From Bdellovibrionales bacterium (GTDB lineage: Bacteria > Bdellovibrionota > Bdellovibrionia > Bdellovibrionales > UBA1609): a stretch of 62,443 bases of DNA. The notes under the pieces were generated by a model that was not told where the DNA came from, did not search any database, and saw only the letters and a list, made by a program, of their open reading frames with translations. The translations under genes and the position numbers were made by a program. The stretch covers positions 1 to 62,443 of the forward strand of contig JAHDIR010000013.1 of NCBI GenBank assembly GCA_020630675.1, given 5' to 3'. The first letter of the stretch is position 1, and every line of letters starts with the position of its first letter. Of the stretch, positions 40,490 to 46,052 are shown in pieces.

Positions 40490-41077
40490 TTAATATTTAA
40501 ATTCTTTTTTTAAACGGCTGAAGGCTTCTGGGGTTATTCCTAAAAACGAGGCAATATCTTTGCTTGTAATTTTGTGATGGCATTCCTTGTATTCTTTTAA
40601 AAACTCAGTGTAGCGTTCACTGGCACTTAACATAAGTAGTTGATATTCTCTTTGCTCTCTGGCAATGAAGTGTTTTTCTAATAAAGTTCTAGAGATTCTC
40701 TCCCAGCATATGTGTCTGGGGTAAAGATTTTGGTATTCACGAAAATTAAAAGTTATGATTTCGGTATCCTCTAGGGCGGTGATATCAACCTTGGAAGATT
40801 CATTCATGAGTATGGACGAGTAAGCTCCGCTGAGTTGACCTGCTCTTCCAAAGTAGTGCACGAATTCTTTGCCAGCGCTAGAGGTATAACTTCTTTTTAC
40901 CATGCCTGAAATAATTAATCCCATATTTGAGCTAAAATCACCAGCTTGAATAATGACTTGGTTTTTTTTGAATTTAGCCAGCTTACAATGTTTTTCAAAC
41001 TGTTCCCATTCAGAATCTGGCATATTACTCACAGATTTAAAAAAATCTTTTAAAATTAAAATTTTTAATGAGTTCAT
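40490..41077 (-). CDS. Crp/Fnr family transcription regulator
   Basis: About 195 residues: cyclic-nucleotide-binding-like beta-roll (residues 20-120), dimer helix, and a C-terminal winged HTH (SKDIASFLGITPEAFSRLKKEF). The recognition helix has Glu-x-x-Ser-Arg (EAFSR), the FNR pattern that reads TTGAT half-sites. No N-terminal Cys cluster for [4Fe-4S] and no cAMP-contact motif are visible, so its signal is unknown. The start is ATG 41077; a TTG at 41134 adds 19 residues. It lies downstream of the GH3/ketosynthase genes whose leader has FNR-type boxes, so it may control them. Confidence 0.85.
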   Translation of the reverse strand: MNSLKILILKDFFKSVSNMPDSEWEQFEKHCKLAKFKKNQVIIQAGDFSSNMGLIISGMVKRSYTSSAGKEFVHYFGRAGQLSGAYSSILMNESSKVDITALEDTEIITFNFREYQNLYPRHICWERISRTLLEKHFIAREQREYQLLMLSASERYTEFLKEYKECHHKITSKDIASFLGITPEAFSRLKKEFKY

Positions 41078-41192
41078 AAAGGCCCTGTTCCAAAGTTTTA
41101 ACAGGAACCTAACTATTTTTAATATATATTTCAATGTTTACCTGCACTTCTTTGGTTAATTAGATAAGAAAATAAATATGGGTTGGTGATAT

Positions 41193-41297: not shown

Positions 41298-42764
41298 TTA
41301 AACCTTGCTAAAGCGAGACATTTTATTTTGACCACCAAATTTTCCTTTTGTTTCTAAATATTTATATAACTCATCTTTTTTATAAAAGATTATCTTAGAT
41401 GCTCCGATGTGATTTCCATGAATTAAATCTCTATAATAAGAGTTTATATCCATTAGGCTTTGATCAAGAATAAAGCTGATGTTTTCAGGCTGTTTTGATT
41501 TATTATTCAGTTCAATGTGCCATTGGTAATATGGCTTTTTATTTGCTTGAATGACAGGCTTGATAAAATAGTCAACCATAGTGATATTTAGTTTTTGTAG
41601 AGTAGAGCTCATGGCTTTGTCTATTTCTTCTTCAGAAAGATGCTCTCCAAAAAAAGACAAGCTATGACCTTGTCTTTTTATGAATTTAAATTTGTAGGGA
41701 TTTGTTTGCGTAAACTGGATAATATCATCCGATAAATAGCCATATAAACCGCTCAAAGAACTAATGATAATTACATAGTTAACTCCTAATTGGATTTCTT
41801 TTAGGCAGCAACGATCTTGCCACCTATTTTGTTTCAAACTCTCTGTTGAGATAAATTCATAAAAAATGCCGGACTGTGGGTTGAGAGTAAAGTCAGGGTC
41901 GTTGGGGTTGTGTCTAAGCCCAATGAACCCCTCTGAACTGGCAAAACTTTCTAGGCGAGTGATTTTTCTTTCTTTGAATATACTTTCAAATGCACTTTTG
42001 TAAGGAGTGTACGACGCACCTCCTTGAATGTAATAATTTAAATTTGGGTAAATTTCATGACATGGTTTTTTTAGTAACTCTTCAGATCGTCTAAGAAAAT
42101 GTAATACCCAGGGCGGAACACCTGCAATGAGCTTAAGCTCTTTGTGAGGGCATTCTTTAATGATTTGGTCCAGTTTTTTACCCCAGTTACTAATACAATT
42201 GGTTTTATAACTTGGGATCTTTTTAGATTTAAGAAATTGAGGCGTGTAATGATGAGTGATTCCTGACAGTCGACCACTCGGAACACAGTTTGTTCTATTT
42301 AACTCAGGTGACCCTTGTAAATAGAGAATTTTTCCGGACAATATGTCAACATCCTCTGTCTGGCCTATGTAGTTTAAAAGCAAAGACTTTCCAGAAGAAA
42401 TATATTTTTTTAAATGTTTTCGGCTAATAGGGATGATTTTTTTGCCAGACAGCGTGCCTGAGGTTTCGGCAAATACTTCGGTGCCTTGGTTTGTTAAAAT
42501 ATTTTTTTCACCGCAGCTAATAAGTTGAATATACTTTAAGAGTTCATCATATTTCTTAAGTGGAACATTTCTTTTATAATCCGAATAACTTTTGATGTCT
42601 GTGAAGTTATGTTCTTGGCCAAATTTTGTGTTTTTTCCATTTTTAATAATATTTTTTAGTTGTTTGCTTTGAAGCTGGTGTATATTTTTAAGGTCACTAC
42701 AGTAAGAAGTGAAGACCTTCTTACTGTAGTGTTTAATTAAAAAATTAACTGATAAAAAACTCAT
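41298..42764 (-). CDS. GH3 auxin-responsive-promoter family ligase
   Basis: About 488 residues of the GH3 family, ANL-superfamily enzymes that adenylate an acyl acid and join it to an amine or amino acid. Recognisable segments: KLKNIIKNGKNTKFGQEH near the N-terminus, VFAETSGTLSGKK (phosphate/ATP loop), and LESFASSEGFIGL around the adenine-pocket region. I start at ATG 42764 with AGGA about ten bases upstream; the frame opens earlier at 42866 inside the neighbouring gene. Twenty-five bp separate it from the ketosynthase fusion, so it probably conjugates that enzyme's product. Confidence 0.85.
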   Translation of the reverse strand: MSFLSVNFLIKHYSKKVFTSYCSDLKNIHQLQSKQLKNIIKNGKNTKFGQEHNFTDIKSYSDYKRNVPLKKYDELLKYIQLISCGEKNILTNQGTEVFAETSGTLSGKKIIPISRKHLKKYISSGKSLLLNYIGQTEDVDILSGKILYLQGSPELNRTNCVPSGRLSGITHHYTPQFLKSKKIPSYKTNCISNWGKKLDQIIKECPHKELKLIAGVPPWVLHFLRRSEELLKKPCHEIYPNLNYYIQGGASYTPYKSAFESIFKERKITRLESFASSEGFIGLRHNPNDPDFTLNPQSGIFYEFISTESLKQNRWQDRCCLKEIQLGVNYVIIISSLSGLYGYLSDDIIQFTQTNPYKFKFIKRQGHSLSFFGEHLSEEEIDKAMSSTLQKLNITMVDYFIKPVIQANKKPYYQWHIELNNKSKQPENISFILDQSLMDINSYYRDLIHGNHIGASKIIFYKKDELYKYLETKGKFGGQNKMSRFSKV

Positions 42765-42789
42765 AAAATTCTTTTCCTGCCTGCAGCCA

Positions 42790-44691
42790 TTAGTAGTTAT
42801 TGATTTCTTCAAGTTGTAAAAGGTAAAGTCTGGCCGTGGTTTTAGCTGTTTTAATAATTTCATCAACCAATTCAGATGTTAAAGGAGCTTGTGCAATAAT
42901 ACTCTCTATAGGTGAAGTGATATTTTCATCTTCATGAGTTGCATGGTGAGTTAAAAATGTGAGCTGGTTATCTGTTAAATTCAACTGTTCGCCAATTTGT
43001 GTTTTCCACTTTGTACACACTTTAGAGCTAAGGCCTTCGATAATGTACATTGCGCCTAACATACAGAAAGGATTCTTTTTAGAGGCTTCTTGCAACATAT
43101 AAGCATTAAGAGCTTCTGATCCAATATTTCTTTCGGCATTTTCAATGTCTTCAATCTTACCTCCAACGCTCACATAGTCATGATCCAATTGGCCGTAGTC
43201 TTTGTGTCCGTAAAGAGCGTGCTTGAAGGCAAAAGAGCGAAAATCAAAATAGTCTTTACTAATGTTAGAGATCATGCGAGCTATCCAGGCATTACCTTCA
43301 ATAACTTGTGGGCGTAGATTAAGAAGTAGATTTTTATAAGCCTCTATGGTGAATTGAGACTTATTAAGTTTGTTAACGATATTTATACTATTCAGCTTAA
43401 TTTCAAAATCAATCCAAGTTGAGCCTAAATTTCTAACTAATTTTTCAGTGAGTTTATTGTTCGCAAAGTCACCACTAAATTGAGGGGCTGTCACATTTTT
43501 TTGATTTACTGACATCTCTGTTTTTGTTTTGGTGTTTGAATCAGTATTATCAACTACGGTACAAAGCATGTAAGAAGAAATGAATCGTCCGCTTTCTGGT
43601 ACTTGGCAAAGTATTTTTGCACCAGCTTTCAAGTCTTTTGTTTTTAAAAACTCATCAAGCATTATAAATATTGATGCTGCACCTGTGTTTCCTCTTTCAT
43701 AAAGGTTTGTGTACCACTTTTCTTCAGGCAAATTTAAACCTGCTTTTTTCATAAAATCATGAATCTTTGACTTAAAAAAATGTGATGAGTAGTGACAGAC
43801 CATCCAGTCCAACTGGTCAAGATCAACTTTTTTGTTCTCAACTAAATCTACAAAATGCTTAACACCAATTTTTACAACATTGTCTAACATTTTAATGTCT
43901 TGTTTGAGGTTAAAATGTCCTTTAGCTGTCGACTCGAGCTCGTTTTTTTCTGTGTACCAAGTTGAAGATATTTTGCCTGTCTTTTTGTCTTTATTGCCGC
44001 CTAGATACATGCAAGTCTCGAATTGATTTGCATGAGAGCGAATGTCTACCCATTCAATCCTTAAGCTCTTGCCATTAGGCCTTGGTTTGTCTTGCAAGAT
44101 CAAAGCCCCAGCTCCATCACTTAGCATCCATCTTAAGAAGTCTGTATCAAAACCAACTCCCTTTTCTTTAACTTCTTTTTGGGCGTTGTAGCGTGTGTTT
44201 CTGAATGTTCTAGATACGAATTCACTACCAACGGCTGTAGCATTGCGTTTTGAACCCGTTTGAATCTGCATAAAAGCATTTTTAATCGCCATCATTGAGG
44301 ACGAGCAAATTCCATGGGCTGTGTTGACCTCTAGAGTTGGGCCGCCAAGCTCTCCGTGAACCATGCTGCCATGGCCGGGCGCTAAAACATCACCTAGAGT
44401 TGTGCTGGCTGAAAGTAGCTGAAGGTCATCTAAGTGTATTGGGGAATTGTCAATGGCATTTAGAATGGCGTTCTTGGCCATTTCAGCATTGGTGTGAGTG
44501 ATATTGTGGTTTTTGTCTATAGCGTAGTGTCTTAATTTAATTTGATTAGATTTTAGTATTCTTTTTTTAGACTTAGAAGGTTTATCATTAATAAGTCCTA
44601 AGTAATTTTCGATTTCCTCATTAGATATTGCTGGTCCAGGTAAGTAGTGGCCCGTTCCCGTTATAAATACGTCTTTGATTTCTTTTTTCAT
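42790..44691 (-). CDS. Ketosynthase III-like/haem-oxygenase-like diiron (HDO) fusion protein
   Basis: A 633-residue two-domain protein. Residues 1-390 form a FabH/ketoacyl synthase III-like thiolase fold with a complete triad: Cys129 in HGICSSS, His300/304 in VCHYSSHF and Asn335 in NTGAAS. Residues 405-633 form a haem-oxygenase-like helical bundle with candidate metal ligands Glu465, His491/495, Glu552 and His582-586 plus Asp588, as in HDO-type diiron oxidases. AAAGGAC precedes ATG 44691. I infer condensation of an acyl chain followed by oxidation, decarboxylation or N-oxygenation, with the GH3 ligase acting next. Confidence 0.75.
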   Translation of the reverse strand: MKKEIKDVFITGTGHYLPGPAISNEEIENYLGLINDKPSKSKKRILKSNQIKLRHYAIDKNHNITHTNAEMAKNAILNAIDNSPIHLDDLQLLSASTTLGDVLAPGHGSMVHGELGGPTLEVNTAHGICSSSMMAIKNAFMQIQTGSKRNATAVGSEFVSRTFRNTRYNAQKEVKEKGVGFDTDFLRWMLSDGAGALILQDKPRPNGKSLRIEWVDIRSHANQFETCMYLGGNKDKKTGKISSTWYTEKNELESTAKGHFNLKQDIKMLDNVVKIGVKHFVDLVENKKVDLDQLDWMVCHYSSHFFKSKIHDFMKKAGLNLPEEKWYTNLYERGNTGAASIFIMLDEFLKTKDLKAGAKILCQVPESGRFISSYMLCTVVDNTDSNTKTKTEMSVNQKNVTAPQFSGDFANNKLTEKLVRNLGSTWIDFEIKLNSINIVNKLNKSQFTIEAYKNLLLNLRPQVIEGNAWIARMISNISKDYFDFRSFAFKHALYGHKDYGQLDHDYVSVGGKIEDIENAERNIGSEALNAYMLQEASKKNPFCMLGAMYIIEGLSSKVCTKWKTQIGEQLNLTDNQLTFLTHHATHEDENITSPIESIIAQAPLTSELVDEIIKTAKTTARLYLLQLEEINNY

Positions 44692-44880
44692 TTTTTTGTC
44701 CTTTGCTCTTTTATGCAGAGCTAAAATTAGTTATTTAAAAATAATTATTAATTTGATTAAAATAATGGCGGATACAAATACGATTTTTTTAGAAAAGAAC
44801 TTAAAGTATTTTTTATTAGCTAAAACTTGAGTTCGAAAGTATTTGACCCAATAAATTATTGCGCTAGCAAACTCAGCCTT

Positions 44881-44997
44881 TCACATAAGTAGTTCGTTAA
44901 AATTTAAAGTAGCCATAATTAAAATAAAAAAAGACACTGAGGCTAAGCTAAAAAAAGATATAAATATGTTTTCAAAAAAGTTTTGGGGTATTTTCAT
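44881..44997 (-). CDS. Small single-pass membrane protein, in-frame TGA then open frame
   Basis: A 38-codon ORF with GGAG seven bases before its ATG encodes one hydrophobic segment (FFSLASVSFFILIMATL). It ends at TGA 44883-44881. The same frame stays open to TAA 44731 and would encode about 49 more residues, with a basic stretch and a second membrane helix (KKIVFVSAIILIKLIIIF), but has no start of its own. Possibilities: a real short protein, a broken two-helix gene, or stop read-through. Lies between the FNR-type boxes and the ketosynthase fusion, probably on the same transcript. Confidence 0.45.
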   Translation of the reverse strand: MKIPQNFFENIFISFFSLASVSFFILIMATLNFNELLM

Positions 44998-45057
44998 TTT
45001 TTCTCCATTGAGTAAGTAATTTCAAATCGAAGATAAGAAATTAATAATGGAAAGAAA

Positions 45058-45152
45058 TTGATGTAGATCAAAAAAATATAAATAAAAAAATTTTTTTTAT
45101 AAAAAAATTGATCTAGGTTAAGGTTGATTTTCATCACCTTGATCTAGATCAA
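45058..45152. promoter_or_regulatory. Cluster of four FNR-type boxes (TTGAT-N4-ATCAA)
   Basis: Perfect boxes at 45058-45071 (spacer GTAG) and 45139-45152 (spacer CTAG). A one-mismatch box lies at 45124-45137 (ATCAC right half), and a two-mismatch box at 45108-45121 (GTTAA right half). They sit in the leader between murI and the small ORF/ketosynthase/GH3 genes. The EAFSR recognition helix of the regulator at 40490-41077 fits this target. All matches are by eye. Confidence 0.7.
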
Positions 45153-45197: not shown

Positions 45198-46013
45198 TTA
45201 TAGGTGGGTGGCAGTAATATTTGAATAAGAAATTGGCTTTAGAAAACGAGCGGCCACTTCTTGAAAACGACTATTTATGTCTGTTATGCAAAGTTCAATG
45301 TTTTGCTCTTTTTGATCTTGGTTAGCTAACAGAGTTCCTGTTGCCATTTTATGTTGTAAGATGTCTGCAACAGCAGGGGCTGAGTCGATCAGTTGGATGT
45401 GTTTGCCCATAACCTTTTGTATGAAAGCTTTAATAATGGGGTAGTGGGTGCATCCCAAAATAATAGTGTCAACATTAGTGGCTAATAGTGGGCTTACATA
45501 GCGGTGGATAACAAGGTTGATTAGCGGATCGTTTATTAGCCCTTCTTCAATGAAAGGCACAAACAAAGGGCAGGCTTGGCTATGTATAATCATTGAAGGT
45601 TTTAGTTTGTGAATGACTTGCTCGTAAATATTTTGGCCAATGGTGGCTCGTGTACCAAGAACGCCAATGCTACCTGTCGTACTGGTGTTTAAAGCAGACT
45701 GTGAAGCTGGCTCAATAACATTTATGACTGGCACCGGATATGACTTATCACTGTGACTTAAGAGAGCACTTGATGCTGAATTACAAGCTGCGACTATAAG
45801 CTTTGCCTTTTTTTTCATTAGAAATTCGATGTTTTGTTCTGCATACCTTTGGATGGTTGCAATCGATTTGGAGCCATAGGGTAGCCTTGCCGTGTCTCCC
45901 AAGTATACAAAGTGTTCTTGAGGAAACCGTTGAGCCAGCTCTTTTAAAACAGTCAGGCCACCTAGGCCTGAATCGAAAACTCCAATGGGTGAGTTGTTAT
46001 TAGCTTCGCTCAT
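45198..46013 (-). CDS. murI: Glutamate racemase
   Basis: A 271-residue cofactor-independent racemase supplying D-Glu for peptidoglycan. GVFDSGLGGLTVLKEL at the N-terminus, first catalytic Cys in VAACNSAS, second in ILGCTHYPII. I use ATG 46013 (MSEANNN), which leaves seven residues before the conserved strand; a TTG at 46049 would add 12. Its 3' end borders the FNR-type leader. Confidence 0.95.
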   Translation of the reverse strand: MSEANNNSPIGVFDSGLGGLTVLKELAQRFPQEHFVYLGDTARLPYGSKSIATIQRYAEQNIEFLMKKKAKLIVAACNSASSALLSHSDKSYPVPVINVIEPASQSALNTSTTGSIGVLGTRATIGQNIYEQVIHKLKPSMIIHSQACPLFVPFIEEGLINDPLINLVIHRYVSPLLATNVDTIILGCTHYPIIKAFIQKVMGKHIQLIDSAPAVADILQHKMATGTLLANQDQKEQNIELCITDINSRFQEVAARFLKPISYSNITATHL

Positions 46014-46052
46014 ATCATCTGTATTAAACAATACTCCTGAGTTAATCAAAAA

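Follow-up and report, generated by a model that had tools for sequence, protein, structure and literature searches.

A StlD/DarB-like ketosynthase fusion with an altered metal site is paired with a GH3-type ligase in two Bdellovibrionales species

Results

The window analyzed here, by which we mean the whole 62,443-nucleotide stretch of contig JAHDIR010000013.1 (assembly GCA_020630675.1), is contig 11 of the 3.1-Mb genome of a Bdellovibrionales bacterium. Three genes lie on its minus strand in operon-like order: a small membrane protein frame (44731-44997), a 633-residue fusion of a StlD/DarB-like ketosynthase (KS) with a haem-oxygenase-fold (HDO) domain (42790-44691), assigned on profile, alignment and structure evidence, and a gene for a GH3-type acyl-adenylating amide ligase (41298-42764), starting at the better of its candidate ATGs (42764), which is preceded by AGGA and lies 25 nt past the fusion stop. 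The set is flanked by murI (45198-46049) and by a minus-strand Crp/Fnr-family regulator gene adjoining GH3 (40490-41134; recognition helix EAFSR). The same order of small ORF, fusion and GH3 is found in a second species of the genus (G002, recorded as uncultured Bdellovibrionales bacterium), with identities of 84% for the fusion, 66% for GH3 and 55% for the small ORF; since both flanks carry different genes there, we do not regard the three-gene arrangement as a product of chance. The Crp/Fnr-family gene does not adjoin the operon in G002, and its membership in the operon is uncertain. A preliminary description of this DNA had reported the fusion, the GH3 gene and the preceding small membrane ORF in such an order, and all of these stand.

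Within the fusion, the KS domain takes up residues about 7-380 and is followed by a variable linker (381-411) and the HDO domain (412-633). The KS had been described as FabH-like with an intact Cys-His-Asn triad. The triad is complete and in StlD register, with C129, H300 and N335 falling on the StlD catalytic positions, but a plain FabH identity was rejected, StlD being far closer by both profile and alignment. More specifically, the domain matched the StlD/DarB family NF005293 (E=5e-133) at 443.7 bits, just under the cut-off of 450 and well below the DarB NCBIfam cut-off of 550 bits, aligned to StlD (5gk0) with E=3e-88 and ~38% identity, and ranked StlD at the top in Foldseek. As the relatives tested, fused and split alike, scored under 450 with NF005293 as well (362-447 bits) vs. 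510 bits for the stand-alone DarB of a congener, we file this KS, on its sequence, as a StlD/DarB-like sister type. It resembles the enzymes of the isopropylstilbene and dialkylresorcinol/flexirubin pathways in sequence, triad and fold, and differs from them in its fused HDO domain. No DarA-like gene was matched in eight fusion-bearing genomes (G000 among them) and 80 loci by a stand-in query that was named by position and general look and itself matches no family. The congener with the stand-alone DarB (G003, L033 293-13102) carries it in an aryl-polyene-like cluster with a flavodoxin-like neighbour, and appears to have a classical dialkylresorcinol set in place of the fusion.

The C-terminal domain had been called a haem-oxygenase-like diiron domain. 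The fold is well supported: although the score with Haem_oxygenas_2 (PF14518) was 25.2 bits (E=1.7e-5) vs. a gathering score of 28.9, the AlphaFold model of residues 418-633 has a haem-oxygenase fold at pLDDT 92, only residues 589-592 of the model fall under 50, and its closest structures are 3dde (Z 25.1) and CADD (Z 23.4). The diiron part did not fare as well. In MboA, the canonical oxidase set consists of E86/H89/E143/H172/D176/H181, i.e. E-x2-H, E, H-x3-D and a last H (PMC13185094), positions which, in a register obtained via 3dde, correspond to residues 495, 498, 552, 583, 587 and 590/591 of the fusion. Among 85 related HDO domains, residues 552 and 583 are invariant, as is a His at 491, and E495 is found in 83, with conservation at residues 491-499 and 543-552 being partly selected by the patterns with which the 80 loci were found; D587, which like the last His is unaffected by this bias, is also present in 83 of the 85. 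Both exceptions at 495 and at 587 are the window and G002, which carry Gly495 and Glu587 and have the last His replaced by Ile. In place of a 3-His/3-carboxylate set, the window fusion thus has G495, D498, E552, H583, E587 and I591. Compared with 3dde, CADD, UndA and MboA, it shares the fold and keeps the helix-2 Glu and the helix-3 His, the differences being the first-helix Glu (Gly), the first-helix His (Asp family-wide) and the last His (Ile). Based on the changes at 495, 587 and the last His, we consider a canonical diiron site unlikely in the window and G002 fusions. The preliminary description had held that ligands missing from an alignment would speak against such a domain, and this is partly the case, with two near-invariant ligands lost and a third changed.

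Five potentially metal-facing residues are left in the window fusion (H491, D498, E552, H583 and E587). Between the window and G002, the HDO domain has pN 0.125 and pS 0.73 (dN/dS about 0.05, with dS near-saturated), its pN lying between those of KS (0.078) and GH3 (0.244). These values indicate strong purifying selection on the domain. It is therefore not decaying, but has been retained although its metal centre is altered or lost. As a separate observation on the 85 aligned domains, residue 498, where the usual first-helix His ligand is expected, is Asp in nearly all, and the invariant His491 precedes it by two turns, which hints that the metal site is rearranged across the whole KS-HDO family.

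To place the fusion among its relatives, one genome per species was scanned, yielding 468 related stretches, of which the best 80 were examined as loci. Represented among these 80 are Bacteroidota, Myxococcota, Acidobacteriota, Alphaproteobacteria, Actinomycetota, Cyanobacteriota/Melainabacteria and other groups. A KS-HDO fusion of 600-700 aa is the usual form; most of the Alphaproteobacteria, as well as the cyanobacterial group, encode KS and HDO in two adjacent genes. The split version also occurs on a Pseudoalteromonas plasmid, where the annotations read ketoacyl synthase III, iron-containing redox enzyme and hypothetical protein. Among the best 80, the next gene encodes DUF6999 (PF22523) in 76 of the 78 loci with room for it; 30 loci have a gene for a fatty-acid hydroxylase upstream, and a single one, that of G002, contains GH3. 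A KS-HDO/DUF6999/fatty-acid-hydroxylase cassette is thus kept across many phyla (loci L058-L135), with DUF6999 as a near-obligate partner. Within Bdellovibrionota, the fusions of G035, G100, G105, G108 and G229 adjoin DUF6999 and fatty-acid-hydroxylase-like genes, and G339 bears a fusion as well. The window fusion shares its domain order with this cassette, Glycomyces included (KS mostly 38-53% and HDO 41-52% identical), while the window and G002 differ from it in having GH3 rather than DUF6999 and in the lost metal ligands. In a quick tree, these two sit on a separate stem (length 0.73) outside a large multi-phylum group, the exact placement of the stem being soft (SH-aLRT 83-93% at the relevant forks).

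A search for the fusion and GH3 pair across genomes had been proposed at the outset; it revealed a widespread fusion, usually with DUF6999, and among other genomes of the order and phylum no instance of the pair besides G002. A literature search on KS-HDO, DUF6999 and GH3 plus ketosynthase found nothing on the cassette and no characterized pathway for the three-gene set, in agreement with the earlier statement that it resembles no pathway that could be named. The fusion thus belongs to a widespread family for which we found no publication, and the window and G002 represent a lineage-specific variant of it, marked by the pairing with GH3 and the loss of the metal site.

The gene 25 nt downstream of the fusion, earlier designated an acid-amido synthetase type, has GH3 N, M and C domains all above gathering score (best E=5e-31), and its motifs ETSGTLSGKK, FASSE and GLYGYLSDD agree with those described for OlsH and plant GH3 (PMC12493201). 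OlsH, a GH3-type lyso-ornithine lipid synthetase (NF052613), is the only curated family matched, with likeness in the GH3 fold and the three nucleotide motifs; at 265.8 bits vs. an equivalog cut-off of 620, OlsH identity was rejected, and we assign the product as a ligase of the GH3 kind other than OlsH. No OlsI- or OlsG-like neighbour was recognized beside it. Elsewhere in the order, GH3 genes share 25-33% identity with it and, in the two congeners inspected, do not lie beside such a KS.

The small membrane ORF (44881-44997) ends at a TGA (44881-44883), past which the frame runs on to 44731, giving 38 + 49 codons. In G002 (L028, 11023 onward, upstream of the fusion), TGA occupies the same codon and the sequence is conserved on both sides; of the 52 differences downstream of the TGA, 30 fall on third positions (p=2.7e-4 vs. 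one third). Selenocysteine at this codon was rejected: a tRNA-Sec search gave none, the near-threshold matches being ordinary tRNAs (Ser, Tyr, Leu and others), and no structure 3' of the TGA was supported. With no tRNA-Sec found, leaky stop-codon readthrough seems the likelier reading of the sequence.

Two perfect Fnr-type palindromes (TTGAT-N4-ATCAA) lie upstream of the operon, TTGATGTAGATCAA at 45058-45071 and TTGATCTAGATCAA at 45139-45152; they are the only two in the window, against 0.28 expected. The same upstream region of G002 has a counterpart with one mismatch, which alone is not significant. These predicted boxes suggest control of the operon by oxygen or a related signal; the Crp/Fnr-family gene is positioned about 4 kb away from them. 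Furthermore, a perfect hairpin of 15 bp (42695-42731, minus strand) falls within the first 25 codons of GH3. The 12-bp arms of its core, TACAGTAAGAAG-N7-CTTCTTACTGTA, are identical in G002 (L028 9007-9035), and the outer pairs of the hairpin differ between the two species on both sides in a compensatory manner. The core occurs once in each of the two genomes, ruling out a dispersed repeat as its origin.

Discussion

We speculate that the three genes constitute a lipid-modifying operon in which the KS makes a ring acid, the HDO domain is disarmed and GH3 amidates the carboxylate, a reading to which we give a probability of roughly 0.42. By analogy with DarB, which is reported to turn a beta-ketoacyl and an enoyl thioester into 4-carboxy-2,5-dialkylcyclohexane-1,3-dione with a carboxylate on the product (PMC5515871), the KS would join the same kinds of substrate. 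The HDO domain of the widespread ancestor, together with DUF6999 and often the fatty-acid hydroxylase, would oxidize the KS product, possibly in the role of the aromatase DarA. In the lineage of the window, this domain would no longer be a canonical diiron oxidase and may instead serve as a scaffold, a product holder or an altered metal site, such that the carboxylate survives and GH3, with ATP, would activate it and link it with an amine, probably that of an amino acid. In other words, we infer that amidation by GH3 takes the place of oxidation for an acid derived from the KS, perhaps a 4-carboxy-cyclohexanedione; the capture of the carboxylate as an amide is the step on which we would bet least. 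In favor of this reading are 1) the co-conservation of the GH3 pair in spite of different flanks, the loss of ligands and the replacement of DUF6999; 2) the carboxylate on the DarB product; and 3) the synthesis of N-acyl amino acids from free (fatty) acids by OlsH, a bacterial GH3 (PMC12493201). Against it, we count the sub-cut-off StlD/DarB score as regards ring formation, the five remaining metal-facing residues as regards the disarmed oxidase, and the restriction of the GH3 version to two genomes, so that ligand loss and GH3 gain may trace to one evolutionary event. The preliminary description had envisaged an oxidized, amide-linked lipid; given two near-invariant ligands lost and a third changed, the oxidized part is doubtful, while the amide linkage stays plausible as a prediction.

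The remaining residues could also mean that the fusion still oxidizes its product, binding one or two metals via H491, D498, E552, H583 and E587, with GH3 then amidating an oxidized acid. The confident fold, the conservative nature of D587E and the purifying selection on the domain are compatible with this, as is the occurrence of Fe or Fe-Mn sites in some HDOs (PMC13185094), but two near-invariant ligands are gone in both species, with E495 absent in no other of the 85 sequences, and the DUF6999 partner is lost, so that we consider continued oxidation unlikely, if worth keeping in mind. Doubtful to a similar degree is the possibility that GH3, akin to OlsH, makes N-acyl amino acids from ordinary fatty acids and the KS-HDO fusion a separate ring compound, the two being co-regulated rather than parts of one assembly line. 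OlsH, as the sole NCBIfam match, does accept free fatty acids, but GH3 is far under its cut-off (266 of 620 bits), the 25-nt spacing is tight and GH3 is paired exclusively with the window/G002 variant of the KS. We deem it very improbable that two related species of one genus simply inherited a fortuitous pairing of genes with no joint function, because the gene order is kept with both flanks different and synonymous sites near saturation, and because of the conserved hairpin and the upstream boxes.

Returning to amidation of a KS-derived acid, Fnr-type control would fit an oxygen-independent route. In its most far-reaching form, which is improbable as a whole, an oxidative ring-lipid cassette would have been rewired into oxygen-independent amidation, with the oxidase domain disarmed but kept structurally, DUF6999 replaced by GH3, N-acylated cyclohexanedione-carboxylate lipids as products, Fnr-type control, and a small membrane subunit made via UGA readthrough.

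The KS-HDO/DUF6999 cassette is very widespread and conserved, and we found no publication on it. The window and G002, having lost ligands and swapped the partner, offer a natural comparison for working out the role of the HDO domain in the other fusions. The pairing of this KS-HDO variant with GH3 suggests a new lineage-specific lipid, and amide-linked ring lipids of a new class are a candidate product of the set.
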